Below, in pieces: positions 21,547 through 61,790 of a stretch of DNA of 64,000 bases. The notes under the pieces were generated by a model. The model worked only from the letters and a program-made list of their open reading frames with translations, was not told the DNA's origin and made no database searches. The position numbers were made by a program, and so were the translations under genes. Positions within the stretch are counted from its first letter, which is position 1. Every line of letters starts with the position of its first letter. Source of the stretch: Buxus sempervirens (taxonomy: Eukaryota > Streptophyta > Magnoliopsida > Buxales > Buxaceae); contig OX387186.1 in assembly GCA_947561395.2 (NCBI GenBank), positions 41,311,220-41,375,219 of the forward strand. Reading direction: 5' to 3'.

Positions 21547-23889
21547 TATGAGACATAGGAAAAATCACCGGAATGATTCCCCCTCCGTCAACACACGGGC
21601 TCGACTTAAAAAGTGGAAGAGTCACCACCATTCAGCTTTTTGAGGTGTGAATGGACACCAAAAGATTCAAAAATAACAAAAGGGAGCTAAAAGGCAAATT
21701 CTAGAGTAAAAATAACCCTACTTGAAAATCAAATCCAGAGATGGGTAAGGGGATTAGATTATGAACGGGGAAAGGTATTAGGCACCCCCATTCACCCACA
21801 AAGTGGTTGCCAAGTGTTGTTCATGCAAAAAAGTAAGAAAGCTTGCTAAAATCATTAAAAACATTGAAAAAGAATTAAACAAATGTGTGATATCTTCACA
21901 TGAGAAATCCAAATGGATTCCAGATCCTCTTTTATGTCAATATCACTTCTGGAATATCAACAATAGATGGAAATCCAAGCAAAAATTGCACAAAGCCAAG
22001 TTGAGTCAAATCCGGAAAATTCGGTAAAAGATAATGCCATTTGTCTTGAAATCATTCAAATCCAATTTTAAATTGAATCAAACCAAATCCATTTGAAAGA
22101 TTATGGTAAATAAGAGACTCATGCAAAGTTTCAATTAAATCCGGTTGAAATCCTAAGAGTTATGCCTCTTTTAAAATTGCTGCTGGAGATAATTAAAAGT
22201 GACAAGTAGGCAAGTTTGGAAAATCATCTAGAAAACTCAGCTCCATATAAATTCATGAAATTTGGTGTGAGTGAAGTCTGTATGGTCATCTTTCAAATGA
22301 AACTAGCTTCATACAAAAATTCATTCGGATGTGCCTTGGGTGATCTCCCGAACAGGCCCCGAAGATCACAAATTTACCCAGAAAAGTGCTGTTGAGCAGT
22401 TCTGAATAAATCTGTTACCCACGACACAAATGGAGTCAAACAATTATGAAACCAACTGGATTTGAAACTAGACTTCCAAAGGAAAACACAGAAATAAGAA
22501 TCACTCAAATCGGACTTAAAACAAGCACATGGCGCTCCATCGAAGTGACAGGTTCCGTGTTCAGACCTGAACTAACCTATCAACTTCGACAGAGAGGTGT
22601 CACAAATCCGCTTGATAGAAATTAATGAAATTTGGTAGGCATAAACTAGATAGTCTCACCTTTCCCATGGTTCTGGAATCAATCCCAAATTCATCCGGAT
22701 GATGAAGTTATGAGTGTCCGAAGTTGGGGTACAGTTGCTATCAAGTTAAGCCATTTTTGGAGAAAATCAATTCAAAACAGTGACAAGAGGTGTGTGATCT
22801 ATGCAAGATAGATCAAAATCACTTGAAAATCATTTAAAGACATTCCAGAATTGCTTAGGGCTATTTATTTCAGATTTATCACAATAAATGCAATAAATCC
22901 GAAATATGAGCCTATCCCGCCAAAATCACGTGCCATGTATGTGTAGGTGTAAAAATCATTCCATCAACATAACAAAGATAGCATGCATTCATATCAATCA
23001 AAATAGGGTTTTAAAAACAACCTAGGGTTCCGTTCCATTATCGTTTCCCTTAGTTCTCTCTCCCCGTTAAACACGGTTCTTCAAGATAATCTTGGGGTAC
23101 TTTGAATATGGAACGGTCTTCACAGATTCAGAAGGCTTATTCAAAAGAGGTTCTAGCACCAGGATCAATCCCCAGTCTCGTTTCTCCTAAATCCCGCCTT
23201 CACGTTTTACGGCTAGGGGGAGTCTTGTGATACTTTGAGCCGGGGAAGGGTTTTCATACACACATCAAAGGCCTTATTCTACAGAAAGTAGAAGAAGAGA
23301 TCTAGACCTGGAATGTAAAAACAGAAAATTAAAGATAGGTTTGAGGCATACCTGGGTTCTGGAAGCAGTTCTGCAGCGGTTCCCCTCTTCACTCGGAGCT
23401 CTTCTTGGCAAAGGTTCTTGGCAAGAGTTGTTGGCAAGAGTTCAATGGCCATTTGCTTAAGGAGGAGCCTCTTATTTATAGGCAAGGCTAGGGTTAGGGT
23501 TGGTGGGATGGTAGACACAAACTAATGTCTAGAGCCCACCAACCTTAACCCTAAGGCTATTTCTGAGATTTCCACTCATTTAATGAAGGACATGATGGTA
23601 AAAAGTGAAAACTCTCTGAAAACCCTAATTTTGAGCAAAAAGCTTGTATCCGACATGTCAGGTCGGATACACAAGCACCTTAATGTGTTCGGCATATGAT
23701 GTCGGATACACTAAAGCCTGCTTGTATCCGGCAACTTATGTCGGATACGAAGAAGAGTATTTGTATCCGACCTGAGTTATCGGATACAAGGAAAAAGTTT
23801 GTTTTCTCAAATTCTGTGCTGGCTTCAAAGGAGATAATGATTTTTGCTAACTACTGATCATTTTTACTGTGGAATTTGGGGTGTCTACA
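21547..23889 (-). repeat. 3' LTR of element B
   Basis: On the minus strand it begins TGTAGACACCCCAAATTCCAC directly after a polypurine tract and ends CCTATGTCTCATA (ancestral ...GTCTCACA mutated). 2343 bp. It carries the four-unit palindrome array at 23646-23787 and, 165 bp downstream on the minus strand, TATAAATA (23480-23473). It is homologous along its length to the LTRs at 25367-27673, 35919-38259 and 45987-48254. Confidence 0.88.
23646..23787 (-). promoter_or_regulatory. Four-unit 39-bp-phased palindrome array, LTR of element B
   Basis: 25-bp units start at 23646, 23685, 23724 and 23763, exactly 39 bp apart. The consensus arms in this copy are GTATCCGAC and GTCGGATAC around a 7-nt centre. 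The array is in U3, upstream of TATAAATA at 23480-23473. Confidence 0.85.
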
Positions 23890-23904
23890 ACTGCCCCTCT
23901 TTGC
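23890..23904 (-). other. Polypurine tract of element B
   Basis: On the minus strand GCAAAGAGGGGCAGT directly abuts the LTR start TGTAGACA. The same tract precedes the LTR at 35919, so it is the plus-strand primer of this family. Confidence 0.8.
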
Positions 23905-24284
23905 GAGAGTTACGAAGCAATGAGCTGCAAAGATTAGACAAGCCCAAATTGCACTCCCTTAACCATGATTTGCTTGGTTCAATTCAATTTTTGCAAAATA
24001 ATTTTTAGGTGAAGATTTGCCAAAAAGCCCTAACTTTAAGGGGGCATCTCTCCAAGAATTCTTAAATTCCATTGAGCTCTCGTGGCTATGAAGTGGATTT
24101 TAAGCCCAAAAATAAGATTTTTTGAAAACTGATTTTTTATCCAACCAAGTTAAAAAATTGAGAGAATGTCCTCCTTTTTTACCAACACATTTCCTCAAGT
24201 TGTCCGAAATTCCACTGCGCTCTCGTGGCAGTGAAGTGGATTTTAAGGCAAAATAGGGATTTTGTGAAAATAGCTAACTTTGTA

Positions 24285-24440
24285 GCACGCTTTTTTGCTC
24301 TTTTTTCTTTTCTTTTTTTCTTTTGCTCTCTCTTTCTTTTCTCCTTTTTTTTCTTTTTTCCTTTTTTCCTTTTCTTTTTCTCTTATTTCCCTTTTTTTCT
24401 TTTCTTTTTCTTCTTTTTTTCTGTTTTTTTTTCTTGCTTT
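24285..24440 (-). other. Long purine-rich tract in the 3' region of element B
   Basis: The + strand is almost pure C/T for about 150 bp, so the genomic RNA strand is nearly pure purine. The equivalent tract in fragment C is at 35395-35510. It lies between the antisense promoter and the true polypurine tract. Confidence 0.7.
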
Positions 24441-24446
24441 TCTTTT

Positions 24447-24524
24447 GTATCCGACATGTTTAGTTGGATAAGAAGGATCTCTCTTGTATCCAACATTGTA
24501 TGTCGGATACACCCTGTTATAAAA
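24447..24524 (+). promoter_or_regulatory. Antisense promoter of the PMD gene in element B (two palindromes plus TATA)
   Basis: Two 25-bp palindromes start at 24447 and 24486 (39 bp apart), followed after 7 bp by TATAAAA (24518-24524). A GC palindrome, GTCGCGCGCGAC, lies right after the TATA box. A half-site CGCCGGATAC lies near 24579. A leader exon with a possible donor near 24895 (GGCAG|TAAG or GGCA|GTAAGC) would splice to the acceptor GTGTAG|ATG at 28087. Confidence 0.6.
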
Positions 24525-25366
24525 GTCGCGCGCGACCGCAACTTTCCCTCTTCTGTTCTTTCTTCTCCGCTTGCTCACGCCGGATACAAGCCTGTTCTTC
24601 TTCGTCCCCGACGACTCCTTTCTTCTCCGGTGGCTTCCTTTCTCTCCGAAGACTTCCATTGCTGCCGGCGATTGCCACTAACTCCGGCGACTTCCATTGT
24701 TGCCCATTTACGGCAGTGGTCGAGCCCTAGCTCGATCTCTCTGATTTTTGGTGATTTTCCCAGCTCAGTGCCGTCGCCCTTGCTCCGGTGATTTCCCTGG
24801 CGGCTTGCTCTTCACCAATTCGACTCCCTTGTGTCTGCATTATCGATCCTTGCTCTTGCTCCACCTTCTTCAATTTCCAATCCAACTGTGGCAGTAAGCA
24901 TTCGGCCATCCTTATTTCACTCATAATTTCCAGTAAGTGATCCTACTTTGCTCGAAATTTTATCCAAGTAAAGCTAATAGCAATTGTTTTGTTGGCAATT
25001 ATTTGCATAACTTTGGGGATCCGATTTCTTGATTGCATGTTTAGTATGCTTCTCATGCTTTGGTTCCCTGTATTGGTAGATTTTTCTTTTCCTTTTTCTA
25101 TAACTGGCTTTGATCTCCCAACTGTGATCCAATTTGATACAATCCTTTAAGATTTGTCCCGTTGGTGATCTTTTCCGCCGAAATGTATGATTTTTCAGAC
25201 GACATGCTGCTGATACCATGCTGCAATTTTCTTGAATCATGCTGCAATTTTTCTTGACTGGAATTCTGCTTTTTATACCATGCTGTAATTGAATTCTGAT
25301 TCCTATACCATCCTGCAATTTTCCCTTGACTGGAATTTATACCATGCTGCAATTTTTCTTGACTGG

Positions 25367-27673
25367 TGTGAGACATGAGAAAAAATCACCCGGAGATGAT
25401 CATCCCTCCGTCAACACGCGGGGCTCGACATAAAGAGTGGGCGTCGCCACCATCCATTTGTTTAGGGTGTGAATGGACACCAAAAGAATTAAAAACAAGC
25501 AAAAAGAGATAAAAAGTGCTAAAAGGCAAATTCTAGAGTAAAAATAGCCCTACTTGAAAATCAAATCAAAAGATGGGTAAGGGGATTAGATTATGAACGG
25601 GGGAAGATGTTAGGCACCCCCATTCACCCACACAAGGTGGTTGCCAAGTGTTTATTCATGCTAAAAGAAAATAGAAAGCTTGCTAAAAAATCATGAAAAC
25701 CTTGAAAAAGGACAAATATATGATATCTTCACATGAAAATCCAAATGAATTCCAGATCTTCTTTTATGTTAATATCACTTCCGGAATATCATAAAAAAGA
25801 TGGAAATCAAAGCAAAGGTTACACAAAACCAAGTTGAGGCAAATTCGGGAAATTTAGTAAAAAGTATGGCCATTTCTCTTGAAATTAATCAAATCCAATT
25901 TTAAATTAAACCAAACCAAATCCATTTGAAAGATTAGGGTAAACAATAGTCTCATGCAAAATTTCAATTAATTCCGGTTGAAATCCCAAGAGTTATGGCT
26001 CTTTTAGGGTTGCTGCCGGAGAAAATTAAAAGTAGCAAGTAGGCAACTTTGGAAAATCACCTAGAAAAATCTACTTCATAGAAATCCGTGAAATTTGGTG
26101 TCAATGAAGTCTGTATGGCCATCTTTCAAAAGAAACTAGCCTCATACTAAAACTCATTCGGATGTGCCTTGGGTGACTTCCCGAACAGGCCTCGAGGATC
26201 ACAGATTGACCCAGAAAAGTGCTATTGAGCAGTTCTGAGTAAATCTGCTCTCCACCATATAATTTAAATCAAAAAATTATGAAACCAAATGGATTTAAAA
26301 ATAGACTCATAAAGGAGTTCTCAGAAACAAAAATCACTCGAATCGGATTTAAAACAAGCAGATGGCGCCCATTCGAAGTGATAGGTTCAACAGTTTGACC
26401 TGAAATGACCTCTCAACTTCGGCAGAATGGTGTCAAAAATCTGCTCCATAGAAATTACTGATTTTTGGTAGGCATAAACTAGACAGCCTCACCTTTCCCA
26501 TGATTCTGGAATCACTCCAAAATTCATCCGGATGATGAAGTTATGAGTGTCCGAAGTCAGGGTACAGTTGCTGTCAAGTAAAGCCTATTTTGAGTAAAAC
26601 CAATGCAAAACTGTGACAAAGTGTGTGCAATTCGTGCAAGATGAACACAAAACCTTTAAAAATCATTTAAAAATATTCCAGAATTGATTGAGGCCATTTA
26701 TTTGAGATTTATCACAATGAATGTAATAAATCCCCAAATGTGAGCCTATCCCGCCAAAATAGTGCTATGTATATGCAAGAGTGAAAAACCATACAAGATC
26801 AATAGAACAACATAGCATGCATACATATTCATCAAAATAAGGTTCTAAAACAACCTAGGGTTCCGTTCCATTATCGTTTCCCTTTGTTCTCTCTCCCCGT
26901 TAAACACGGTTCTTCAAGATAATCAAGGGTACTTTGAATAGGAAACGGTTTACAATCAATCAGAAGGCTTATGCAAGTAGGGTTCTAGTACTAGGGTCAA
27001 TTCCCAGTCTCGTTTCTCCTAGATCCCACCTCCACATTTTACGACTAGGGGGAGTCTCGAGATACTTTGAGCCAGGGAAGGATTTTCACACACAAAGAAG
27101 GCTTTATTCTACAGAAAGGTAGAAGAAGAGATCTAGAACTAGGAAATTAAATACAGAAAAATAAAGGAGGGTTGAGGCTTACCTGGGGTTCTGGAAGCAA
27201 TCCGGCAGCGGTTCCCTTCTTCACTCGGAGCTCTTGGATCTCCAACTTCTTGGCCATTTGCCTAAGGAGGAGCCTCCTATTTATAGGCAAAGGCTAGGGT
27301 TGTTGGTAGACACAACTTAATGTCTAGAACCCCCCAACCTTAACCCTAGGGCTGTTTCCGAGATTTCCCATCACTTAATGAGGGATATGATGGTAAAAAG
27401 TGATTTCTCTCGAAAAACCCTAATTTTTGAGCAAAACTTATGTATCCGGCATATCAGGCCGGATACACAAGAGCCTTAATGTATCCGGCATATAATGCCG
27501 GATACGCTAAGGATTCCTTGTATCCAGCATTTTCCACCGGATACAAAGAGAAGTACTTGTATCCGGCCTAAGTTGCCGGATACAGGTAAAAATTCATTTT
27601 CTTCAATTTTTGTGCTGGCTTTCAAGGAGATAATGATTTTTGATGATTGTTTGTGCAATTTGGGGTATCTACA
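25367..27673 (-). repeat. Solo LTR, Tat family, in the leader of the PMD gene of element B
   Basis: On the + strand it runs TGTGAGACATGAG to GGGGTATCTACA, flanked by perfect 5-bp duplicates ACTGG (25362-25366 and 27674-27678). 2307 bp. It holds the four-palindrome array (27442-27583) and TATAAATA on the minus strand (27285-27278). No polypurine tract or PBS adjoins it, so it is a solo LTR. Confidence 0.88.
27442..27583 (-). promoter_or_regulatory. Four-unit 39-bp-phased palindrome array in solo LTR
   Basis: Units start at 27442, 27481, 27520 and 27559, all 39 bp apart. Arms are mostly GTATCCGGC and GCCGGATAC. Unit 3 is imperfect (GTATCCAGC with CACCGGATAC). It lies 157 bp from the TATA box on the minus strand. 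Confidence 0.85.
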
Positions 27674-28086: not shown

Positions 28087-30902
28087 ATGGCTAGGAGTCG
28101 CTCTCGTGTGCGAGAGGAGGTTGACCCTGCTGATCAGCCATCCACCTCGCGGGCTCGGACAAAGGCGAGTTCTAGCGCCACCCTGTTAGAGCCATTAGAT
28201 GTTTCCAGAGAGAGCTCTACTGAGGGCTCTGCTGAGATAGGCTTCCCAATTTTTCCTTCTTTCTTTCCCTGCTTCCCTTGAAGCCGACTTCACTTATTCA
28301 TTTTTTTTGCTTTTAGCCTGTGGTTGATCTTGTTCGAGGCCATGGTAGAGGCCGAGAGAGAGGTGGAGGCAGAGTTGGTGAGAGGGGCTGAGGCCGAGCT
28401 GGAGAGAGGGGCTGAGGCCGGGCCGGAGCTTCAGGCCAGGAGGGTGCTGCTGTGGCCTTACGCTTAGGAGTTTCTGTGGAGCTGAGAGCGTCTGTTCATG
28501 ATACAGAGCTCCTTAGTGGTTTGGATAGCCACCCTTCCATGTGCATCCGGGCCGATGTGCCTCTTCCATATCCTCCTTCTCATCTGCGAGGCAGTTGGGG
28601 GAGATTTAGTGAGTTGGTGCAGTCGCTTTACCTGGCACTTAGGCGTGAGTTTGGGAGGTGCCATCTGGATTATTTTCTCAGCATCCCATCGTTCCGAGCT
28701 GACCATCCCCTCATTTTTGCTATGATGGAGTGTTATTTTCCGGAGACGCAGTCCTTCCATTTGCAGGACGTGGAGCTGGGGATCCGCCCCTCCGATTTTG
28801 TGATGATTACCGGCATTCCTCTGATGGGGCGGACTATCATTTTGGACCGGCCTTCAGCGGAGGATATCGGCCTTCTCTTGGGATATCAGGACCTGCCTCC
28901 TGCTGCTTGGGACGGGCGGAGTGGTCGTATCTCCATCAGTTGGCAGTGGGAGAGCCTTGCTCGACATTTTGAGGGGAGACACGCGACCATCACTGTGGAG
29001 GATGCAGCCTTCACCCCTATTTTCCTGCACGTGTTTCTGCTGATGCTTAGGAGCTGCTTTTTCCAGGAGGACACGATCAACGTTAGTCCCCTCTTTTTGG
29101 ATGCTCTGCGAGATTTCCATCAGACCCGCCAGCTAGCATGGGGTCGGCTCATATATGGGACCATCTTGGCCGGTCTGTACCGAGTAGTTCGGGGCCTGGC
29201 AGCCCTGAGAGGTGATGGAGTCAGCTGCCGGTTCTTTTGGCAGATTCTGCAGGTATTATATTCATCTGTCTTGTCTTATTCCTTAGGCTTTATCTTCTTT
29301 ATCTCTGACTGATTTTTCTTTTGCCAGGTGTTTATGTACACCTATATGACTTTCTTTAGCCCATCCCCAGTACTTGGTGTCGCGGAGTTCCCTGTTGCTT
29401 TGCGGTGGTCGGCCCAGGTCCGAGATGCTGATAGGAGTCAGCCTCGCACTGCTCGAGTTCACTTGGACCGTGCCCGACGATCCGATGTAAATTCTTTGCC
29501 CTTTTTCCTTTTGTTTCTTTTCATGCACCTTGACAGTATCTGACCATTTTTCTTCGTTGCAGCTCATCCTGGCACGCTTTGACGACGTGGATGTTGGAGT
29601 GGCCCGTGAGATGTTAGTACAGGACGCCTTTGATAGAGATCTGCGACGTCAGCCCTACCAGTGCTTCCTTGGGAGGCTTGGTAGGGTGATGTATTTGGGA
29701 GAGCGCTTGTACTACCAGCACACAGGCACGCTTCGTATCCCCGTTCCTCCTCCTCCTGTGAGTCCTGACACGCTCCTGCCGGGCTTTGATATTGATCAGT
29801 TTGATCACTTTCAGGATGCGAAGGGGCTCACAGTAGCTGGGGATTATGACGAGTGGATCCAGAGAGTATCCATTGGGTGCTTGATGGATCGACCCACTCG
29901 TGCCGGAGTGATAGAGATCGGCGGGATCTACATCCGGGTCCATGATGACACTGTGAGTCTCATGATTTTCATTTTTCCTCCCATTTCCTTCGATTCTGTA
30001 TTTCTGACTTTAATTCTGTTCTTATTGGTAGGTACATGAGCTGAATGCCGTGCGGAACCGGTTCCAGAGTCAGCGGGCCGCGATCGAGGATATGATCGCA
30101 GAGCATGACGCGGTCGTGGCCTAGAGGTATGCTCGGATCAGAGAGCTGGAGGCCCTAGTTGCTGAGCTCCAGGCTAGACAGGTATCTGGTTTCTTTATAA
30201 TTTCATCTCTTTCATTTCCATGTTTCTGCTATTCTGATATGCCTGTTTGACTTTTGCAGGGCCCAGTCCCAGATCAGGATGCTGCTTTTGAGCCTGATTT
30301 CCCTGTACCTGATCCATCTCCGGTTCGGGCTGCTGATCCTGATGATGCCTTGGCTGCCGTTCCTGACCCTTCTGCATCTCTTGCACGTGTTGCTCCTGCG
30401 GATCCTGGGGCTTCCGTGGACCTGTAGACATTCCGGTTGCAGACCCGGCTCATACTGCTCCTGCCGGCACTTCATCCCCTGTGGCGGCTCCTGATCCTGC
30501 TCCTGAGGTCCCTAGTAAGTTTTCTTTAGTTTCATCTCCTTGGTTCATTTGGATACCTCAATTTCTTATTTGTCTTCTGTTGGCCCAAATATTTTTGTTC
30601 CTGGCCCCTTTTCTGCTGCTGCTGGGGCTTCTGGATCTACAGGAGCAGAGGCCGCTGTGGCGGAGGGTCCAGTCGAGCCTATACATGCTGAGCCCGAGGC
30701 CTCTTCCCCAGATTCTGCTCCTGATCCGCCTCCAGACCTTTCGGAGTATTGCTTGGAGTATCAGATCCAGTCGGTTGTGGGTCGGCTTCCTCGCCATACT
30801 GCCAAGCTTATTCTGGCATACTCTAGGCACCGATCACCTCGAGGTAGAGGTCACAGAGAAGGACGGGGCAGAGGACGCCGAGGAGATCCTGCACATGAGT
30901 AG
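28087..30902 (+). pseudogene. Antisense plant mobile domain (PMD, aminotransferase-like) gene of element B
   Basis: Exons: 28087-28236, 28317-29252, 29328-29486, 29563-29952, 30032-30181, 30260-30514, and about 30594-30902. Exon 2 encodes the globular core (RADHPLIFAMMECYFPETQSFHLQ, TGIPLMGRTIILDRP, WDGRSGRISISW, QLAWGRLIYGTILAGLYR). Exon 5 is a coiled coil (RIRELEALVAELQARQ). The last exon ends in an Arg/Gly-rich tail (RGRGHREGRGRGRRGDPAHE). All visible introns are GT-AG except the first, whose donor reads GAG|ATAGG. Defects: two TGA stops in the Arg/Gly repeat (28389-28391, 28413-28415), TAG at 30122-30124 where the copy in element A has Gln, and a frame change near 30425. Proteins with this domain are mobile-element passengers; some host versions act in silencing of transposons. 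Function here unknown. Confidence 0.75.
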
Positions 30903-31098
30903 TAGATTAGGATTTTCCTTTTTTCCTTATCATTGTACAAAAAGACTTGTTTATATATGAAAAGAAACTTTTTTATTTATTCTCTCTTGTCTGGCTCTCT
31001 TTCCCTTTCAATTTCATGCAATTATAACTTGTATACAGGTGAAACAGGTAACAAATTCGGATTTTTCTCCATTTTCTCTTTTTTTGCATTTTTTCTTT

Positions 31099-31260
31099 GT
31101 ATCCGACATATCAGACCGGATACATTGATATTTCTTTGTATCCGGCATAATATGTCGGATACATGAATATCTCCTTGTATCCGGCATACTTCATCGGATA
31201 TGAATAAAATCCCTTGTATCTGATCTGATATGCCGGTTACATTAAAAAAAGCTATAAATA
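31099..31260 (+). promoter_or_regulatory. Antisense promoter of the DUF7745-like gene, element B
   Basis: Four palindromes start at 31099, 31138, 31177 and 31216 (39-bp period). After the last one, 12 bp separate it from TATAAATA (31253-31260). The start of transcription would be near 31290, just before the solo LTR insertion at 31312 that now separates the promoter from its ATG at 33167. Confidence 0.75.
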
Positions 31261-31311: not shown

Positions 31312-33112
31312 TGTGAGACATGGGAAAAAATCAATTTAATGACTTCACTGATCATCACGCGGGAATCATTAAAAACACAGAGTCGCCACCATTCAATCTA
31401 GGTGTGAATGGACACCGAAATATCAAATAAGCACAAAAGGCCAAATTTGGGGTAAAAATAACCCTCCTAAAAAAAACAACCCGAGATGGGTAAGGGGATT
31501 AGGTTATGAAAAGGGGAAGGTGTTAGGCACCCCTATTCATCCACACAAGGTGGTTGCCAGGTATTGTTCATGTTAAAAATAAAGGAAAAAGGCTTGCTCT
31601 AAAAATCATGAAAAATCACAAAAAAGACAAACATGTATGGTTTTTTCATACGAACATCCTGATTGATCCAGAACTTTCAAATATGATCATACCATTCCTA
31701 GGGTTTCATGATCAAAACAAAATTGAGATAAAATCAAATAAAACCAACTTAATGTGAAAAATCCAAAAATCTGGCTCCAAGTCAAATTCTAGAAATCTAG
31801 AAAAATATGATTTTTATAAAATATTTCAAAATTGAACTTAAATAGTCCAGGACATAGATAAAGCCCAAATTTCACATTAAATCAAGAAATAAAAACCAAA
31901 AATACCCACATTAATGAAAAACATCAAAAGGGGAGAACTTTGACCGTAGGGTCTTATCTCAAAAGTGGAAAACAACTCAAAAACATCATGAAACCCTAGA
32001 ATTTACTTTCAGGCTTCTAGATCCAGATCTACCGTATTGATCATGATAAATCCAGGATCTTAGCCTAAAATCACAAAAATCACGAAAACAGTGCTGTATG
32101 TGCAAAAGTGGTGAAAATCCAAATTTTAGAAAAAAAAAGCGGATCTCGTGCTATAATCATCATGAACTCATAGGATTAATCCAGATTCAAAATATAATCA
32201 TTAAAACATGATCAGGATATCAAAATAGCCATATCTCACAAATTAGAGCACATGGGGGCTACCCTACGGATCCACCTGTTCTCTTTTCCCCTAGCTCTCT
32301 CTTCACGTTTTATGGCTAGAGAGACTCTTGAGGTACTTAGAGATAGGTTTGGGTACACAAACACAACCAAAGGCCTTATTCTATAAAAAATAGAAAAAAC
32401 AGATTATGGGGTTCTATTCTAGGGATCCACCTGTTCCCTTTTCCCCTAGCTCTCTCTTCACGTTTTACGGCTAGAGAGACTCTTGAGGTACTTAGAGACA
32501 AGTTTAGGGATACAAAATAAAATAGATGGCCTTATTCTACAGCAATAGAGAAGATCCTATTATCTTTAGAATTGAAGACATAAAATAAAAGGGACTTACC
32601 TGGATTCAGCAAGCAGAGCAGCAGGGATTCCTCTCTTCTCTTGGAGCTCTTGAGTCTTCAAAATTTCGTGTCCCTTTAGCTTAAGAATCTCACCTCTATT
32701 TATAGGCAAGCACAGGGGCAAGGCTGGTCCAGAAGGATATATCCTGATCCTCAAGATAGAGTCAAAAACAGAGATAATGCCCATCCATAGCCAACCAAGG
32801 TGGCTTCAGCGAATAAAAAACATAATTCGCTTATTTAAAGGGATATTGGACTAAAGATAAAGCTCGGAAATCGAGAGAAGAATAAAACTTGCACGAGTCT
32901 TTAGTGACCGTAAATGATACACGGTCCAACAGTGCCCGTATTTCCAATACGGGCGCGCCTGACCGTAGAGATATGTCGGGCACGACCGGCCCGTGAATAA
33001 AATACGGGCAAAGCCTGCTTTGTCAATTTTTATGCATTTTTGACCTGGTTTAAGCTCTAATTACATGTTTTTATTACTTTATCATTCTGTAGTGCAATTT
33101 GGGGTGTCTACA
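31312..33112 (-). repeat. Solo LTR of a second Tat-like family, between promoter and ATG of the antisense gene
   Basis: On the + strand it starts TGTGAGACATGGG and ends TTTGGGGTGTCTACA, flanked by perfect duplicates GGAAC (31307-31311 and 33113-33117). 1801 bp, shorter than its relatives. Its palindromes are of the GCCCGTA type instead of GTATCCGG. TATAAATA lies on the minus strand at 32704-32697. An internal duplication is visible: GGATCCACCTGTT...CCCCTAGCTCTCTC occurs at 32269 and again at 32420. Confidence 0.88.
32906..33009 (-). promoter_or_regulatory. Palindrome array GCCCGTA-N7-TACGGGC in solo LTR, 28-bp period
   Basis: Four 21-bp units start at 32906, 32934, 32961 and 32989 (28, 27 and 28 bp apart). 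Units 1 and 3 use GACCGTA arms. The array occupies the same U3 position as the 39-bp arrays in other LTRs, about 200 bp upstream of the TATA box. Confidence 0.75.
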
Positions 33113-35107: not shown

Positions 35108-35218
35108 TGGAGGCAATGGGAGCAAGCTAAGAATCAATGGGAGGATGAAAAAGGCGAAAAAGGGGTTTTCTAAACTCAAAAACTCGTAAAAAATACGTAA
35201 ATCCCAAGGCTGGTTGCA

Positions 35219-51557: not shown

Positions 51558-52679
51558 ATGAATACTGAAGAGAACCAAGCCCAAGCTACCGTCCCCGCTC
51601 AGGACTTTACTCAGCTGCAGGAGCAAGTGGCCGGTCTGGCCAAAATGCTAGGAGACTTACTGGCGGCTCAGGCCCAGCAGGCCCAAGCCCAAAATCAGGC
51701 GTCGACTTCTCATCCGGCACCGCCACCTCAGGCCTATATTCCGCCTCCGGTTCAGCCCATGCCTGAGCCCATTTCTGAACCAGTCCCTGAACCCATTCTG
51801 ATCAGGGAAAATACAGCGGAGTTTGAGAAAGAGCTGGAAAAAGAAAAGGCCCGGGATGAGATGGAAAAGAAAATGCTGCTGAGGATAGAAAGAATTCAGG
51901 TAGAGCTGAAAGAGGTGAAGGGGGGAGGCAGCCATGCAGGCACCACCTTCGAAGATCTGTGCATGTACCCGGACGTCTGTCTACCGGCTAAGTTCAGGTG
52001 CCTAGACTTTGACAAGTTTGATGGCACGGGCTGCCCATTGAGCCATCTGAAACTATACTGCGGGGCTCTGTGCCAGTTTGGCCGGGACGATGGAATACTG
52101 ATCCAGCTCTTCCAGAGGAGTTTGACCGGGTCAGCCCTTCGGTGGTTCGCTACAGTGGACCATGGAAGGATTAGAAGGTGGAAGGACTTGGCCGATGCTT
52201 TCCTGGACCAGTACAAGTTCAACTCTGAGATCGTGCCGGACAGGTATGACATGATGAGGATGACCAAGGGGAAGGATGAACCGGTACGGCAGTACGCCAA
52301 GAGATGGAGAGAGGCCGCCTCCCAGGTCAGGCCACCTATGCAAGAGCCAGAGATGATCTCCACCTTTATGGGCACACTGGGGCAGCCCTTTTACAACCAT
52401 CTGGTGGGTCAGATAACCACCAACTTTGCAGCCCTGGTGCAGGTGGCTGACCGGATTGAAGAAGGGGTCAGGTCAGGACGGCTGATAGACTACTCTACTC
52501 TGACTGGGCAGTCTGATTCCTCGGCCTCCATGGCCCAGAAGAAAGGGGCCGGATTCAAAAAGACGGGGGCCCGAAAAGAAGGGGAGGTGAACCTGGTCCA
52601 GGCTCCTCCCGCCAAGAAGCCACTGCACGTGAACATCTCGGCACCCCAACAGGCCCAGCAGGCCCAGCAGTCGTACTAG
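51558..52679 (+). CDS. gag: Element A gag (capsid part), ended by an in-frame TAG
   Basis: The first ATG in frame is 51558 (MNTEENQAQATVP); the frame is open from 51507. Order: Gln/Ala-rich segment, Pro-rich segment, coiled coil (EKELEKEKARDEMEKKM), then the retrotransposon gag domain (KFDGTGCPLSHLKLYCGAL, GSALRWFATVD, RRWKDLADAFLDQYKFN, QYAKRWREAASQV). The TAG at 52677-52679 is followed in the same frame by the rest of gag, so it either inactivates the polyprotein or is read through. An acceptor-like TTTTTCCTCAG at 51482-51491 precedes the frame. Confidence 0.85.
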   Translation: MNTEENQAQATVPAQDFTQLQEQVAGLAKMLGDLLAAQAQQAQAQNQASTSHPAPPPQAYIPPPVQPMPEPISEPVPEPILIRENTAEFEKELEKEKARDEMEKKMLLRIERIQVELKEVKGGGSHAGTTFEDLCMYPDVCLPAKFRCLDFDKFDGTGCPLSHLKLYCGALCQFGRDDGILIQLFQRSLTGSALRWFATVDHGRIRRWKDLADAFLDQYKFNSEIVPDRYDMMRMTKGKDEPVRQYAKRWREAASQVRPPMQEPEMISTFMGTLGQPFYNHLVGQITTNFAALVQVADRIEEGVRSGRLIDYSTLTGQSDSSASMAQKKGAGFKKTGARKEGEVNLVQAPPAKKPLHVNISAPQQAQQAQQSY

Positions 52680-55271
52680 ACCCCGATGAATGTCAACTTC
52701 TCTCCTTCCGTGCCAGCTAACACAAGGAGGACTTTTTCTAAGGAGGAGCGGGATGCCTGGTTCGCAGCAAGAAAGAACCGGGTTTTCACCCCTCTACCCA
52801 TATCTCTGTCCCAACTACTGCCAACCCTGCTGAAAGGGGAATATTTGACTCTGAAAGAGTCCAACCCGAATGCCACCAGGGGGAGAAATTTTGACACGTC
52901 GGTCACCTGTGACTTCCACATGGGTGCACCGGGGCACTCTACTGATACCTGCTGGGTGCTGAAGCATGCAGTCCAGGACCTGTTGGACCAGAAGGCATTG
53001 GTGTTCAACACTGCTGCACCGGCCCCGTCCGGGAATGATATTGGGCAGAATCCTCTGCCTTACCACAATGGGGCAGGCCCATCCAACTCCATCACTGCCA
53101 TATCCACCACCAGAAGGGCCTTTGACCCATCACAGCTCATAGCCCCTGTGGGGACCACAGTCCAGGTCCGATTTTTCCCAGAGGAGGAAGAGGAGGAGAT
53201 CAACATGGTCTCCCAAAAAAATAATAATCTTGCTGCTGAGGACATAAGTTCCTCTCTAAACAGGGTCTCTTCACTCATGGCCCAGATGAATACTGCAAGA
53301 CCCCCATTGGTCTTCAATTGCAGTCCACCCACTTATTCCCCATCCAAGCCGTCTAAGGCTCCACTGGTCATCAATCTTGACCCCACTACTGCTTCCATCA
53401 CTTCTTCTGTCCCCACCAAATCCAAACTTCAACCCCTGGTTGTAAATGTGCAGCCAGCCCAAACTATCCCTAAACCGGCCCATACATCCCGATCCAGACT
53501 CCAGCCATTAGTGGTTAACATCCCTAAACTAGCCTATTCAGAGGCCGCTGTACCATGGAATTACAGCGAGGGAATCACGGCTACGGTTCCAATGGTCAGG
53601 AACCAGAACCAGGAGGAGGTGAACCTCATGACGAGGTCGGGGAGATGTGCAGGGGGTGAAGAGAAAGAAAAGGAGACAGAAACAGAAAAAGAAAAAATAG
53701 AAAAAGAAAATGAAGAAAAAAGAAAACAGAAGGGAAAAAATAAAGTAGGAGAAGACACCCCCCAGGGTGCAGAAAATGAGGCAGCCGACCTCATAAAAAT
53801 AATAAAAAAGAGTGAATTCAATCTTGTGGATCAGCTAAACAAGGTCCCGGCCCAGATTTCAATACTGGGCCTCTTGCTGAATTCCGAAAAGCACAGGGAT
53901 GCATTGTTAAGGGTGCTACAGAGTGCACACGTATCCCAGACCATCGATCCAGACCAGCTTGGTAAAATGGTTGGTCAAATCTTGTCACATAATGTGATAA
54001 GTTTCTCAGAGGGTGAGATCAGCCCAGGTGGGTGTTATCATGTGGACCCTTTGCACATCACTGTGCTTTGTAAGGGCTGCATGGTTGCACGGGTTTTAAT
54101 TGACAACGGGTCAGCGTTAAACGTTTGCCCGTTAATCACTTTTACCAAGCTGGGTCTGGACCAGTCAAGGATCAAGCAAAATGGGCGGATAGTAAGGGCT
54201 TTTGATAGCTCCAAGACCCACTCCCTAGGGGAGATTGAACTGCCGGTCACAATTGGGCCGAATATCTTTAACATCACATTTGAAGTGATGGATATACCCG
54301 CAACCTTCAATCTACTCCTAGGAAGGCCGTGGATACATTCGGCTAGGGCAATACCATCCACGCTCCACCAGAGGGTGAAATATGTAAGAGGGCAAAGGGT
54401 GATAACAGTCCTAGCCGAAAACTTGGTGCCGCCCATCGTGTCACCTGATGTGCCCTTGATCAATGTGGACTTGACTGTCGACAAGATTGCATTCCACTCA
54501 TTTCAATTTGAGGCAGTAAATTACATACCTGGGGGGAGTGAGAAAAAGAAGGAAAAAGGGACCACTGCAGAAAAGATGGTCAAGAAAGTGATGGAGAAAT
54601 ACCACTTTCACCCAGGGAAAGGCCTGGGGATCAATCTGCAGGGGATGGTGGAGCCAATCACGGCTAAGAAACTGATCCCCAAGGTAGGGTTGGGCTTCAA
54701 GCCCAGAGGTTGGAGGAGAATGAAGCATGAAGAAGGGGAGAGCAGAAGCAAAGGAAAACTCCCGCATCTGAGGGTGAACTTTCCAAAACCCTCCTACATA
54801 ATCCAAATTTCTCCTTCTATGGACCAATCCAAACCTCCCTACTACAATGTCAACCCATTTCAAAAGCCTTCTGTTTCGGCTTTGCAACCATATAACCCCT
54901 CTCCGATACTAGAAGCAGTGGATGGGCCTGGTCCACAGCCCGAGCAGCAGGTGGACTTTTCTGAAGATGTTGGTGCATTCTTCGCCATGACTGAAGGCGA
55001 AAAGACAGGGGCAGACATGGAACTGCCATTTATTGACTGGGCCGCAGTAAAGGTTCCAGACAAGGTCATTTCTGAACTGGGCCCCGTAGCAGAAAAGGGC
55101 AGTACCCACCCGGTGATGATGGCATCGGATGCTGGGCTTGAGGAGCAGACTTTCCCTATTTCCCCTGCTCCCCAAAATTTTGTACTGAACAACTGGGAGG
55201 AAACTCCCCTTACTTTTGAAGCAGCGTTAGTTCGGCAAACTAACGCGGCTTCCAAAAAAAAACTCCAATAG
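52680..55271 (+). CDS. Element A gag C-terminus, zinc-knuckle-like motif, protease, G-patch-like region
   Basis: It continues in the gag frame after the TAG. Seen in order: C-x2-H-x5-H-x4-C (CDFHMGAPGHSTDTC, near 52908-52952), a low-complexity linker and a Glu/Lys run, aspartic protease with VLIDNGSALNV (Asp codon 54102-54104) and LLLGRPWIHSARA, a G-patch-like stretch (HPGKGLGINLQGMVEPI...GLGFKPRG, about 54610-54705), and a linker with FFAMTEGE. It ends at TAG 55269-55271 after a 9-A run; pol follows in the -1 frame. Unlike element B, the protease Asp is kept. Confidence 0.85.
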   Translation, partial: TPMNVNFSPSVPANTRRTFSKEERDAWFAARKNRVFTPLPISLSQLLPTLLKGEYLTLKESNPNATRGRNFDTSVTCDFHMGAPGHSTDTCWVLKHAVQDLLDQKALVFNTAAPAPSGNDIGQNPLPYHNGAGPSNSITAISTTRRAFDPSQLIAPVGTTVQVRFFPEEEEEEINMVSQKNNNLAAEDISSSLNRVSSLMAQMNTARPPLVFNCSPPTYSPSKPSKAPLVINLDPTTASITSSVPTKSKLQPLVVNVQPAQTIPKPAHTSRSRLQPLVVNIPKLAYSEAAVPWNYSEGITATVPMVRNQNQEEVNLMTRSGRCAGGEEKEKETETEKEKIEKENEEKRKQKGKNKVGEDTPQGAENEAADLIKIIKKSEFNLVDQLNKVPAQISILGLLLNSEKHRDALLRVLQSAHVSQTIDPDQLGKMVGQILSHNVISFSEGEISPGGCYHVDPLHITVLCKGCMVARVLIDNGSALNVCPLITFTKLGLDQSRIKQNGRIVRAFDSSKTHSLGEIELPVTIGPNIFNITFEVMDIPATFNLLLGRPWIHSARAIPSTLHQRVKYVRGQRVITVLAENLVPPIVSPDVPLINVDLTVDKIAFHSFQFEAVNYIPGGSEKKKEKGTTAEKMVKKVMEKYHFHPGKGLGINLQGMVEPITAKKLIPKVGLGFKPRGWRRMKHEEGESRSKGKLPHLRVNFPKPSYIIQISPSMDQSKPPYYNVNPFQKPSVSALQPYNPSPILEAVDGPGPQPEQQVDFSEDVGAFFAMTEGEKTGADMELPFIDWAAVKVPDKVISELGPVAEKGSTHPVMMASDAGLEEQTFPISPAPQNFVLNNWEETPLTFEAALVRQTNAASKKKLQ

Positions 55272-58200
55272 TGGATTGCCATTTCCCTGAAGGTTCTAAT
55301 GGGCCTTCGTCTTCAGGGGAATTATGTTTAGAAGGCCCACAAAAAACCCAAAAAGATTTTTCTATTTTTTCTAGGAAATTTAATTTTTTCAAAAAAGTCC
55401 AAACCACTTATGAACCATATAATCAGACCGAATTGGACCAGGTTGAATATGACTTCGACCTTGAGCTCGACTTTGATCTCATGGGGGTCGAAGAAGAGAC
55501 CGAGGTCGAAGAAGAAGACGTTCCAAAAGAAATTGAATACCAATTGGAACGTCATGAAAAGGGGGTCCAACCTAATATTGAGGAGACCATATCCATAAAT
55601 CTTGGGACCAAAGAGGACCCAAAAATTGTGAAAATCGGGTCATGCTTGTCTGATGTGCAGAAAATTGAAATGTCACAATTCTTGGCAGATTACAAGGATG
55701 TGTTCGCTTGGTCATATCGGGACATGCCGGGGTTGGATACGGACATGGTGGTGCACAAGTTGCCAATTTTGCCAGGGGTTAAGCCGATTAAGCAGAAGCT
55801 GAGAAGATTGAAGCCTGAATAGACCTTAAAGGTCAAGGACGAGGTGGTCAAACAATTTCAAGCCGGATTTTTGGCAGTCTCTACGTACCCAGAATGGCTC
55901 GCAAACATAGTGCCGGTACCCAAGAAGGACGGGAAAGTCCGAATGTGCGTGGACTATAGAGACTTGAATAGGGCAAGCCCAAAGGACGATTTTCCGCTTC
56001 CACACATCGACCTTCTGGTCGATAATACTGCGGTACATAGCCTGTTTTCCTTCATGGATGGTTTCTCAGGATATAATCAGATCAAGATGGCTAAGGAGGA
56101 TCAAGAGAAAACCGCATTTATCACACCTTGGGGCACATTCCACTATACAGTCATGCCATTTGGGCTTAAGAACGCTGGGGCAACATATCAGCGGGCCATG
56201 ACTGCACTATTCCATGACATGATCCACAAGGAGATGGAGGTCTATGTGGACGATATGATTGCCAAATCATGCAAAGAGGAGGACCACTTGATCAATCTGA
56301 AGAAAGTATTTGATCGGCTCAGGAAGTACAGTCTACGGCTTAACCCGGCTAAGTGCGTCTTTGGGGCTACATCAGGAAAGTTGCTTGGGTTTATAGTGAG
56401 CCGAAGAGGAATTGAAATTGACCCGGCTAAAGCCAAGGCCATAATTGAAATGCCAGCACCCAGAACCGAGAAGGAGGTCAGGGGCTTTCTTGGGAGGATT
56501 CAATACATAAGCCGGTTCATAGCACAGCTCACTGCTATCTGTGAACCAATTTTCAAACTTTTGAGAAAAGATAACCCGACGGTCTGGAATGAGGACTGCC
56601 AGCAGGCATTTGACACAATAAAGAGGTATTTGCTAAACCCACCTGTGCTAGTGCCACCAACTCCAGGAAGACCACTGATCCTGTACTTGTCAGTGTTGGA
56701 AACGTCAATGGGATGTGTCTTGGGGCAGCATGATGAGACTGGTAGAAAAGAAAGGGCAATTTACTATCTGAGTAAAAAATTCACAGAATATGAAGCCAAA
56801 TACACACCATTGGAAAAGACTTGCTGTGCTCTAGTGTGGGCCACTCAGAGGCTAAGGCATTATTTCCTTAGTCACTCCACACTATTAATATCCCGGATGG
56901 ACCCGCTGAAGTATTTATTTGAGAAACCGGCACTGACTGGCAGGACGGCAAAATGGCAACTGCTACTGTCCGAGTTTGACCTCACATACATCACCCAGAA
57001 GGCAATCAAGGGTCAAGCCATAGCTGATCACCTGGCTGCACATCCTTTGCCAGAATATCAACCCTTGAAGACCAACTTCCCAGATGAGGCAATTCTGTAC
57101 ACTGAAGAGGAAGACAGTGAGAGTTCTTGGCAGATGTTCTTTGATGGGGCAACCAATATGAATGGGAACGGAATAGGGGCAGTCTTGGTAAAACCAGATG
57201 GTTCACACATCCCAATTGCAGTAAAGCTGAGATTCCAGTGCACCAATAACATAGCAGAATATGAGGCATGCATAATTGGATTGCAAGCAGCCATGGATCA
57301 TGGAGTAGAGGAACTTGACGTATATGGGGATTCGAGTCTTATCATCTTCCAAACAACTGGTGAGTGGAAAACCAAGGATCACAAATTGATCCCCTATCAC
57401 CAGTACTTGGAAGAAATAAGCACAAATTTCACTCGAATTTCCTTCAACTATATGCCAAGGGCCAAGAATCAGTTTGCGGATGCTCTAGCAACCTTGGCTT
57501 CAATGGTCAGCATACCAGAAGGAGTAGACATCAGACCGCTGGAAATTGAGGTTAGAGATGAACCGGCTTACTGTCTCGTTCTAGAGGGAGCACCAGAGGA
57601 AGAAACACCATGGTTTCAAGATATCAAGAATTTCTTGAATAATCGGAGTCTGCCAGAGAATGCCAATGCTACTGAGAAGAGGACAATACAGAGATTGGCT
57701 GGTCAATTTCTGCTAAGTGGTGGACATGTGTACAAGAGGTCACATAACGACATTCTGCTCAGATGTGTTGCCAAGGCTGAATCGGAAAGGCTGATTGAGA
57801 CTGTACATGGAGGAGTCTGTGGGCCCCATATGAGTGGGCACATGCTGGCTAAGAAGATCCTGAGGCTAGGATATTACTGGACGACTATGGAGCACGATTG
57901 CTGTATACATGTCAGGAGGTGCCATCAATGCCAAATATATGCAGATAATAAGCATGCACCCCCGGGAGAGCTGCACAACATGACATCACCCTGGCCCTTC
58001 TCTATGTGGGGCATAGATGTCATCGGCATGATCTCCCCTAAGGCATCGAACGGTCACAGATTCATCCTGGTGGCGATTGACTACTTCACCAAATGGGTGG
58101 AAGCAGCATCATATGCAAATATCACAAGCAACCATGTTATCAAATTTTTGAAGCACAACATTATTTGTCGCTATGGGCTGCCAAGTGCCATAGTATCTGA

Positions 58201-58858
58201 CAATGCTTCAAATATTAAGAACAAGGACATGAAGAAAATGTGTGAGCAGTTTCAGATCACCCATCATAAGTCAGCTCCGTACAGGCCAAAGATGAATGGG
58301 GCAGTGGAAGCAGCAAACAAGAATATAAAGAAAATCATTCAGAAGATGGTAGTGAGTTACAAAGATTGGCATGAAATGCTACCACTTGCTCTACATGCCT
58401 ACAGAACCTCGATCCGGACTTCAACTGGGGCAACCCCATACTCCCTAGTCTATGGGATGGAAGCAGTCTTGCCCGTGGAAGTAGAGATCCCATCACTCCG
58501 AGTGCTCATGGAAGCAGAACTAGAAGAAGCCGAATGGATCCAGTCGAGACATGATCAACTTAACCTAATAGAAGAAAAGCGGTTGAAGGCGCTTTGTCAT
58601 GGACAGTTGTACCAGAAGAGAATGGCCCGGGCTTACAATAAGAAAGTGAGACCCAGAACTTTCCAAGAAGGAAACTTAGTGCTAAAGAAAATTCTACCAT
58701 TTTTGGAGGATCCTCGTGGTAAGTTCAAGCCCAATTGAGAGGGCCCATATGTCGTCAAGAAAGTCCTATCAGGGGGTGCACTCATCTTAGCAGAAATGGA
58801 TGGGTCAGATTTTCCTGAGCCCATTAACTCTGATGCGGTAAAAAGGTATTTTCCTTGA
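55271..58858 (+). pseudogene. pol: Element A pol: RT, RNase H, archaeal-type RNase H, integrase
   Basis: RT about 55844-56400 (DYRDLNRASPKDDFPLP, FMDGFSGYNQIKM, MPFGLKNAGATYQ, YVDD at 56242-56253). The Ty3-type RNase H follows and lacks the usual first Asp (LYLSVLETSMGCVLGQ). Next is the archaeal-type RNase H with all four acidic residues (FFDGA near 57139, AEYEA near 57256, YGDSS near 57325, FADAL near 57474). Integrase has the zinc-binding set (VHGG, GHM, CHQC), catalytic IDVIG (58014), SDNAS (58198), GAVEAA (58298), and the C-terminal GPYVVKKVL. Two Trp codons are now stops: TAG 55820-55822 before RT and TGA 58736-58738 before GPY. Element B keeps Trp at both sites. Confidence 0.92.
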
Positions 58859-59806: not shown

Positions 59807-61521
59807 CTAGTCTCCTAGCCGCTCCTCAAGCTCCCGAATCCGAGCTGCCTGAGCTGCAATGACTCCTGAAGCCCCCTCTGCAGCGGGATCACTCAAGAAG
59901 GAAATGACCTCATCCGAAAGGGCCTGCTGGATCCTCATACTCCTAAGGCTGGCCAAAGTATCCCGGTACTTCTGCCGGATCATACGGACCTCGAAGCGAC
60001 GGGCCTGCCTCTGCTCCTCCAGCTTCTCTTCCACGGCAATACGGCGTGAGGTCTGCTCATCAAGCTGCCTCTCCAGATAAGCACTCTGTATCCTGAGCTC
60101 CTGGGCCTCCCGTACCCATATCTGCTGAAGCCGCTTATGAGAAGCCCGCTCAGACTCTAGAATGTCCTCATAGGTGGGAGCCAAGACTACAGGAGGATCT
60201 TCGGGTATCGGGGCCTGGGTCTGTATCTGTTCCTTGATCCAGAAGAGATAATCCTTCACATGGGTTTCCGAGAACACAGGACCATGCATAAAGCGGACAT
60301 AAGACCACTCCTTCATCAACCAGGCATTCAGCTTCATAGAAAGAGGCCCAAGACGATCCTCGTATCCATATGGGATGATAATCCCCTGGGTCGCTCGGAA
60401 CTGACGAAGGACCCGCAGAGGAAGATAAAGCACTGCATGCTTTAGGCCTGCTAGGATCAGAAAGTTGCGGTCACGGAAGCTAATCACTGTCTCCGCATTG
60501 GGCTGATAAGTACCAGGCCATCTCACCTGGTCATCCTGAAGCGAGCCCAAGAAGGTGAACCAGCCCTGTTTGCCCCCTGAAATATCGAGGCACCCCCTGT
60601 TGCTCATCAACAAAGGGACTTTCAGACTCGGGAAGAAGTGTCGATTGATCTCTTCAATCTGGCTCAAATGATCAAGTAGCCAAAGCTGCAAAGGAAGAGA
60701 GAGGTGTCAGCACATTGTACAAAAAAAAAAAAAAAACAAAAAAAAAAAAAAAAAAGGCAAAAAGAAGGCCAAAAAGCAAGAGAGAAAAAGAAAGAAAAAA
60801 AAAACTTGTTTACCTGCAGGATCTGGGCACATGCTAAGAAGCGTTTCGACTTCCTGTTGTAGCAGTCGGTCAAGGCCTGATACATCCCTGCTAAAATCAT
60901 AGGGGCCAACCTCTCCCTCTCCCGAACCTGGCATATCACGGAAATCAAGGCCAAGTCCACCTCGTCATCCTCCCGTGGGAAAAGTAATTGGTTGACCACA
61001 ATCAAGGTCAAGGCATTGAATCGGGCCTCCTTATCTTCTCCCCTCAAAAGTTTCTCAGTCAAAAAAGCCTTAGATAGGGTCAAAAGGGTGTCAGAATCCC
61101 CCAAGTCCTTCTTCCCTATACCCAAAAAAGTAGAAGCTTCCTTCTTATAACTGGGCCTAAGAGGTGGATTCACCACCTTCTCATCAAACCTCAGGCCCAG
61201 GATGGTTTCCACCTCTTCAATGGTTGGGGTCATCTCATGGGTCCCAAAACGGAACAAGTTGAGATCAGGAACCCAATGACCAATCATGGCCTCTATAATC
61301 TCTCACTTAAAGGGAACCTTGGGAATGAGCAGGGTATGGCCTAGGTTAGTAGTACCCCATCTCCTCTCCTCATCTAGGGTCATAGAGTTAACCCACCTTG
61401 TGTAAAAGGAATCCACAGGGTTGTACCTAGTGAGATTTGGGGGTTTTGGTCTAAAAGGCTGTTTTGCAGGGGAGGCAGTGTGGACAGACAATAGTGGGGC
61501 AGAAGATGATCCAGATTCCAT
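59807..61521 (-). pseudogene. Antisense DUF7745-like gene of element A
   Basis: Exon 1 61521-60814 (ATG with MESGSSSAPLLSVHT; donor CTGCAG|GTAAAC), intron 60813-60686 (128 bp, pyrimidine-rich on the coding strand), exon 2 60685-59807 (acceptor TTTGCAG). Core: RYNPVDSFYTRW, MIGHWVPDLNLFRF, TPTIEEVETILGLRFDEKV, WLLDHLSQIEEINRHFF, FRDRNFLILAGLKHAVLYLPLRVLRQFRA, AWLMKEWSYVRFMHGP. The C-terminal 130 residues are a Gln/Arg/Glu-rich coiled coil ending RIRELEERLGD. One defect: TGA at 61305-61303, where element B has Trp. Otherwise the reading frame is open, in contrast to the multiply broken gag-pol. The promoter is at 61633-61790. Family name from recall; function unknown. Confidence 0.8.
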
Positions 61522-61632
61522 TGGATTTGACGGGAGCAAGCTAGAACTCAAGAGGAGGAAGAAAAAGGCGAAAAAGGGGTTTTTTAAACTCAAAAACTCG
61601 TAAAAAATGCTCAAATCCCGAGACTGGTTGCA

Positions 61633-61790
61633 TTTATAGCATCTTTTAACATATCCGGTAACTCAGACCGGATACAAAGGCTTTAGTAAGATCCGGATAA
61701 GTGTACCGGATACAGGGCTTCCATGAATATCCGGTATGACATACCGGATACAAAGACCAGTCAATGTATCCGGTATGTCAGACCGGATAC
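61633..61790 (-). promoter_or_regulatory. Antisense promoter with phased palindromes, element A
   Basis: Palindromes start at 61651, 61689, 61727 and 61766 (38, 38 and 39 bp apart), with arms TATCCGGTA and TACCGGATA. The minus-strand TATAAA box (61638-61633) is 12 bp from the nearest unit, as in B and C. The ATG is 112 bp downstream of the TATA box. Confidence 0.8.

Follow-up and report, generated by a model that had tools for sequence, protein, structure and literature searches.

Phased palindrome arrays at the promoters of Tat/Ogre-type retrotransposons in Buxus sempervirens: candidate binding sites for a dimeric regulator

We analyzed a 64,000-nucleotide stretch of the Buxus sempervirens genome (the window; assembly GCA_947561395.2, contig OX387186.1, positions 41,311,220 to 41,375,219) that contains long terminal repeat (LTR) retrotransposons, presumably of the Tat/Ogre type. 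These elements carry palindromes in phased arrays, which occupy the unique 3' region (U3) of the LTRs, the leader, and sites directly upstream of two antisense open reading frames, aORF1 (a DUF7745-like gene) and aORF2 (a plant-mobile-domain (PMD)-like gene). The palindromes fall into three word classes, and one class is found in the slot of another. We propose that the arrays are bound by a dimeric, sequence-specific regulator of these retrotransposons, most likely encoded by the elements themselves, with aORF2 as the better candidate, and acting in an autoregulatory or anti-silencing loop similar to that of VANC. We give this proposal an even chance of being correct.

Eight class I arrays were found in the window, starting at 23646, 27442, 31099, 35237, 36021, 46076, 49624 and 61651. 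Each contains four units of a 25-bp palindrome with TATCCGG and CCGGATA arms. The pitch is exactly 39 bp in seven arrays and 38, 38 and 39 bp in the array at 61651. This bears out an earlier note on this DNA, which had described eight arrays at these places and with this pitch. Allowing up to 3 mismatches, the 25-bp pattern gave 33 matches in the window, compared with a mean of 0.02 in shuffled sequences. Of the 32 units, only the one at 49624 was missed, and the scan gave two extra matches, at 24486 and 24563. A ninth array spans 24447-24510 and has two units (24447 and 24486). Of the arm cells, 90.3% pair (G-U counted), and the covariation score is 0.146; controls with a slid partner reach no more than 43.4% and 0.075, respectively. 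After shuffling of letters, the observed covariation score was reached in 2 of 500 trials and the number of pairs changed on both sides in 48 of 500.

The dyad symmetry could also reflect RNA hairpins, each with a 9-bp stem and a 7-nt loop, that function in packaging, stability or dimerization of the genomic RNA. The arrays in the leader, at the aORFs and in the 3' LTR would all lie inside the genomic RNA, and covariation is seen at pairs 8 and 9. However, G.T and A.C mismatches at arm positions 2-9 are equally frequent (12 and 11), suggesting a DNA site and not an RNA hairpin. In addition, the arrays are followed by TATA boxes on one strand or the other, with a constant interval in the case of aORF1, and an Rfam search returned no match. 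The mismatch types thus disfavor RNA hairpins, which we consider highly unlikely.

One host of the arrays in the window is element B. Its gag, G-patch and pol frames (51507-58738, + strand, identified with Pfam) encode gag followed by reverse transcriptase (RT), RNase H, a second RNase H-like domain and integrase. The integrase follows the RT, which differs from the Ty1/copia order of integrase before RT, and the antisense aORF1 and aORF2 region are located between pol and the 3' LTR. On the basis of this layout, we take element B to be of the Tat/Ogre-type lineage. Its 5' LTR (45987-48254, + strand; a type-1 LTR, LTR46) is followed by the primer binding site at 48257 and has a class I array in its U3 (46076-46217, + strand), with TATAAA 156 nt downstream. 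A second array (49624-49765, + strand) is located in the untranslated leader. Between this array and gag, the leader also contains tandem arrays of 122-bp and 71/76-bp units (50078-51240). The third array (61651-61790, + strand) directly precedes a TATA box on the strand of aORF1, which is a broken copy (59807-61302, - strand) with DUF7745 and PMD in the frame 60664-61302 and only a sub-threshold DUF7745 match in the frame 59807-60706. The aORF2 region (62446-64000, - strand) continues past the window end. It is 82% identical in DNA to 28794-30349, and its PMD match at 63490-63999 is below the Pfam cut-off. The two-unit aORF2 array and the 3' LTR array of element B lie beyond the window, in L091 (L-numbers denote fetched genomic loci).

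The other class I arrays in the window are found in similar contexts. A second type-1 LTR (35919-38259, + strand; LTR36) is a 3' LTR preceded by a polypurine tract, and its U3 contains the array at 36021-36162 (+ strand), with TATAAA 167 nt downstream. Two inverted type-1 LTR copies contain the arrays at 23646-23787 and 27442-27583 (both - strand) in their U3, with TATAAA 165 and 156 nt downstream in the LTR sense. The four U3 arrays begin 90-103 nt from the LTR start. The array at 35237-35378 (+ strand) is upstream of an aORF1 fragment antisense to its element (34575-35126, - strand; DUF7745, 28.5 bits, cut-off 26), with a TATA box 18 bp beyond on the - strand. The array at 31099-31240 (- strand) also has a TATA box 18 bp beyond, facing aORF1 on the + strand. 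The aORF1 fragment that it formerly served (33044-33655, + strand; DUF7745, 25.5 bits, just below the cut-off of 26) is 87% identical in alignment to 35154-34262 and is now separated from the array by a solo LTR. The aORF2 region at 28416-30960 (+ strand) matches PF10536 (plant mobile domain) in its first frame only (28416-29312; 41.8 bits, cut-off 34.9), and the later frames give no Pfam family. The ninth array (+ strand) is a remnant that precedes the TATA box belonging to an antisense PMD gene (aORF2) now lost, in the same context as in L087-L091. The earlier note regarded the arrays as U3 features of Tat LTRs, which holds for four of the eight; three are at aORF1 promoters and one is in the leader, ruling out that every array is an LTR feature.

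Thousands of class I units are present in the 676.5-Mb genome that was searched. The pattern CCGGATAC-N{1,30}-TATCCGG gave 16,406 forward and 16,662 reverse matches, which overlap in that many places are counted on both strands, compared with 20 and 16 for the reversed control. The 100 matches listed, all on contig C1, contain 64 junctions after nested ones are collapsed, of which 59 are at 39 bp, 3 at 38 bp and 2 at other distances. Among these matches, five elements (starting at 3409342, 3441588, 3679722, 4234128 and 4516505) share the array order LTR, leader, aORF1, aORF2 and LTR, while a sixth (3385823-3395466) has no aORF1 match among those listed; the assignments come mostly from spacer letters and order, not from fetched genes.

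The distance between array and TATA box is well defined in two contexts. In a search for aORF1, 150 of 11,550 candidates were scored, giving 154 matches, and the best 30 loci were inspected, including the window copy. TATAAA is located exactly 12 nt past the last array unit in all 30, which are close relatives and therefore not independent. Four units are present in 29 of the 30 and three were seen in one, with pitches of 39 bp (53) and 38 bp (36), and the TATA-proximal center is CTGAGTT in 29. The second context is the type-2 LTR. In all 15 loci sampled, among them both LTRs of a single element (L006 and L059), TATAAA is 11-13 nt past the last unit. Fourteen of them have five units spaced at 39, 93-104, 39 and 39 bp and one has four, and CTGAGTT adjoins the TATA box in 8. 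The earlier note had also described position-specific centers and concluded that the four-unit cassette was copied as a block. The position-specific center AACTCAG is indeed seen, but block copying gained no separate support; AACTCAG may be kept in place as the TATA-adjacent CTGAGTT on the antisense strand. At aORF2, the array has two units at 39 bp in all five fetched copies, of which four were chosen by a match to the pattern and L091 as the neighbor of the window. Two of the five, and the window remnant, have a TATA-like box after the array. Just past this TATA region, a GTCGCGCGCGAC palindrome is present in the window remnant (24525-24536) and in all five fetched copies (L087-L091). In L048 (2478-2847), only 111 bp separate an aORF1-type from an LTR-type array, which suggests a loss of aORF2 together with its promoter from this copy.

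Palindromes with other words occupy similar positions. Class II, GCCCGTA-N7-TACGGGC with a 28-bp pitch, is found in the window at 13822-13898, 14716-14820 and 32906-33009. Genome-wide, TACGGGC-N{1,30}-GCCCGTA matched 7,962 places, compared with 121 for the control, and among 50 distinct places listed the pitch is 28 bp in 48 and 27 bp in 2. Class III, AACCGCA-N7-TGCGGTT, surfaced in a scan without a preset word. CCG/CGG triplets are present in all three words. We analyzed the 1.15 kb upstream of 20 DUF7745 ORFs, picked for diversity from 118 scored. A word-free scan found arrays in 4 of these loci, all class II, and in none of 100 shuffles. Scans with the class words, which were written after the sequences had been read, found class II in 6 loci and class III in 6, never two classes together, and no shuffle of 400 had three units. 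The six class II loci have five units each, with TATAAA 24-25 nt beyond. The class III loci have pitches of 28, 41 and 28 bp in four cases, and three units were seen in L070 and L084. A divergent group of DUF7745 loci (L067-L069, L071-L073, L076 and L077) has no phased palindromes upstream, and the aORF1 of two members is 31-41% identical to the others. Upstream of several members of this group is a TTTAGAGTT...AACCCTAAA-like dyad.

In related sequences, one word is found in the slot of another. The solo LTR that separates the array at 31099 from its aORF1 (31312-33112, - strand; target site duplication GGAAC) is related to the type-1 LTRs, with 86-88% identity over the first 35-40 bp and 65-76% in further blocks, some of which are shifted by internal repeats. 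It carries a class II array (32906-33009, - strand; pitch 28, 27 and 28 bp) from nt 104, with the TATA box at 409, in the slot where LTR36 has class I from nt 103 (TATA at 412) and LTR46 from nt 90 (TATA at 388). Similarly, the presumed leader at 14716-14820 (+ strand), with four class II units at an exact 28-bp pitch, aligns with L065 at 2071, where four class III units are located at the same pitch. Identity is 64% and 76% in the flanks and 54% in the array. A further set of class II units (13721, 13822, 13850 and 13878; 13721-13898, + strand) is located in an LTR starting at 13154 that is 63-72% identical to type-2 LTRs over approximately its first 350 bp; the units lie beyond the aligned part.

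Sequence conservation is concentrated in the arms. Between the LTR, leader and aORF arrays, identity is 0.827 in the arms, 0.329 in the distal spacer and 0.502 in the proximal spacer. The centers differ in this respect, with identities of 0.835 for center 1, 0.617 for center 4, and 0.361 and 0.451 for centers 2 and 3. The four window LTRs have no gap cells in the array, compared with 2-9% outside. These data support the suggestion in the earlier note that spacing and dyad symmetry are under selection. Within the same four LTRs, spacers and centers are approximately 0.67 identical. The arms (0.859) are hardly more conserved than U3 on either side (0.831 and 0.858) in raw identity, so that the arrays do not cleanly escape the refuting condition named in the earlier note, namely arms and spacing conserved no better than the adjoining U3. 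They do stand out in transversions, which are fewer (0.035 compared with 0.067 and 0.073), and in gaps.

A neutral origin would require only tandem duplication and shared descent, with a functionless pitch kept since indels are rare. The near-equal raw identity of arms and U3 flanks in type-1 LTRs agrees with such an origin, and most copies in the genome come from a few families, so that counts are not independent. However, the distal spacers are near saturation between contexts while the arms are kept, and gaps are absent from the array. One type-2 and one type-1 LTR align significantly in the array only. Together, these observations disfavor neutral LTR inheritance. The fixed 12-nt distance to the TATA box in the aORF1 loci and the different words in the same slot also argue against it, and we regard a neutral origin as very unlikely.

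The base changes in the arms bear on a different possibility, that the phased CCGG is a methylation signal or nucleosome boundary that needs no private factor. Of 512 arm cells, 36 depart from the pattern. C>T and G>A account for 28 of the departures; 19 of these fall within CCGG, where they are the only changes, and the remaining 9 are at arm position 1. All CCGG departures are therefore of the type expected if the cytosines were methylated. In addition, four class I units span about one nucleosome, and the palindromic motifs of Sireviruses delimit CpG islands (Bousios et al., 2010; PMC2829016). Two features do not fit well with a chromatin signal: the phased layout is kept in classes II and III with other words, and dyad arms of 7-9 bp far exceed what CCGG needs. 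Such a signal seems very unlikely.

We favor a model in which the arrays would function as operators or upstream activating sites. One array would serve each of three promoters, those of the sense LTR, the antisense aORF1 and the antisense aORF2, with one more in the leader, and a single dimer would read each palindrome. The pitches of 39 and 28 bp do not correspond to a whole number of helical turns, and the pitch may be fixed through contacts between neighboring dimers and not by stacking on one DNA face. The last unit is 11-13 nt from the TATA box in class I aORF1 promoters and type-2 LTRs, which suggests that the bound complex can touch the core promoter. We infer that a protein binds the arrays, that the elements encode it, and that binding activates transcription or counteracts silencing. 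Like VANC in VANDAL transposons, which are DNA transposons, the binder would take part in an autoregulatory or anti-silencing loop, and the different words would have evolved in different branches.

Comparison of the antisense proteins between classes, with two to four copies per class, points to aORF2 as the better candidate for the reader. aORF1 is 79-85% identical between classes, whereas for aORF2 the identity is 51-69% (first piece) and 46-67% (second piece). In the first piece, classes II and III, which share the 28-bp pitch, are 69% identical, and either is 51-53% identical to class I with its 39-bp pitch; aORF1 places class I nearest class II. The greater divergence of aORF2 and its grouping by pitch are the basis for this choice. 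A homolog search with the aORF1 protein found none at E 0.001 among 558 candidates, a PDB sequence search gave one match at chance level (E 0.65), and one array pattern had no match in viral contigs. Coiled-coil-like Pfam matches after the PMD were below the cut-off and were not used.

The arrays could instead be bound by a host transcription factor, with different element branches exploiting different host factors. The type-2 elements L059 and L062 have class I arrays and RTs 80-82% identical to that of element B, but no match to class I aORF1 or aORF2 was found in the fetched stretch between pol and LTR. The factor there would therefore act in trans or be a host protein, and the two elements may rely on other elements for their regulator. 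The CCG/CGG triplets common to the three classes are also consistent with host factors. On the other hand, phased dyads of 25 and 21 bp are longer than the sites usual for plant factors, and the exchange of three words in one slot with the layout kept better fits a private factor that co-evolves with its sites. When the Sirevirus motifs were compared with the PLACE database, mainly sites for stress-related factors were returned (PMC2829016), as a host factor would predict. A host factor is the main rival of our model and is to be taken seriously, although we consider it less likely than not.

The two elements without aORF matches are one of several observations that weigh against an element-encoded regulator of promoters. 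The class III aORF1 promoters lack TATAAA between the array and the start codon, which weakens our model and strengthens the case for a host factor. The class III aORF1 arrays also have the 41-bp gap in the middle, and all six were missed by the word-free scan. No units of any class were found in 8 of the 20 DUF7745 loci. A TATA-like box is absent after the aORF2 array in three of the five fetched copies, and no TATA box is close to the leader array at 49624. The raw identity of the arms in the window LTRs barely exceeds that of U3. A Pfam scan of the aORF1 and aORF2 pieces revealed no known DNA-binding domain. With only three classes, the grouping of aORF2 by pitch could be a chance agreement, expected one time in three, and class and aORF sequences share the same DNA and would co-vary by descent in any case.

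An extension of our model is that the arrays form a private, switchable code. A dimer of the aORF2 PMD protein would read the LTR, aORF1 and aORF2 arrays, and activation or release from silencing would thereby be confined to elements of the same lineage. A new lineage would arise when one word and pitch (TATCCGG, 39 bp; GCCCGTA, 28 bp; AACCGCA, 28 bp) gives way to another in the same slot and the protein is replaced along with it. Elements without aORFs would profit simply by retaining the array. We offer this extension tentatively, as plausible but short of probable.

The closest published relatives of the arrays are the palindromic repeated motifs (RM) of the Ty1/copia Sireviruses (PMC2829016). 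Bousios et al. (2010) described them as palindromic, CGG-CCG-bearing, family-specific and specific to Sireviruses, and raised the reading that they are sites for stress factors (PMC2829016). Both RM and our arrays precede the TATA box in LTRs and are also found ahead of an additional gene, which is ENV in Sireviruses and aORF1 or aORF2 here. CCG/CGG palindromes precede the LTR TATA box here as class I in two LTR types and as class II in the solo LTR, and the Citrus RM word AATCCGGCTWRCCGGATT is close to class I (PMC2829016). Sireviruses differ in being Ty1/copia elements with 8-32 RM copies per element, and the part of their account consulted states no fixed pitch, fixed unit number or in-place class switch (PMC2829016). 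The elements described here are of the Ty3/gypsy Tat/Ogre type, with mostly four units per array, a 39- or 28-bp pitch and antisense genes. The Ty3/gypsy hosts, near-exact phasing, one array per promoter and in-place class switching are new.

By analogy, the closest mechanism is that of VANC, an element-encoded protein that binds transposon-borne, family-specific tandem motifs in non-coding regions, with targets that switch between relatives (PMC5735166). A similar feature is seen here: related elements use different words within the same kind of system, as in the three classes and the same-slot replacement. Unlike our arrays, VANC21 has a short motif, YAGTATTAY, that is densely repeated in a single orientation (PMC5735166). 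The aORF Pfam matches are DUF7745 and PMD. A link between PMD proteins, a promoter motif and transposon control is known from the host proteins MAIN and MAIL1 and the DOWN motif, whose binding the authors leave open (PMC7156037). In Retand elements, the antisense domain stressed in a recent survey is TRP28, predicted to bind DNA and suggested to have a regulatory role, and not DUF7745 or PMD (Vicient, 2025; PMC11963269). In the main text of this survey, the word "palindrome" occurs only within one reference title (PMC11963269). In maize, transcription of the Grande gene23 is driven by an antisense promoter of its own (PMC11963269; 2020 review, PMC7264820). No earlier report of such arrays in Tat, Ogre or Retand elements was found among the open-access literature matches listed.

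The function of the antisense genes in Retand/Tat elements is an open question (PMC11963269; PMC7264820), and the arrays provide them with a concrete candidate target sequence and a prediction of class-matched binding. If correct, our model would explain how three promoters are controlled at once in very large retrotransposons, how related families come to be regulated separately, and how an element that lacks the regulator could exploit it. Together with the Sireviruses, it would mean that two retrotransposon superfamilies had converged on a similar regulatory design. Orthogonal plant promoter modules might also be built from phased arrays whose words can be exchanged.

Three features of the window are located away from the arrays. 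A 51-bp tandem repeat with GAACGTTC palindromes is found at 2875-3153, apart from the Tat elements. An open frame at 1123-2265 is similar to Transposase_32, a putative plant transposon protein (E 2.9e-23). Two ankyrin-repeat frames on the minus strand (4324-7465) are probably exons of a host gene.

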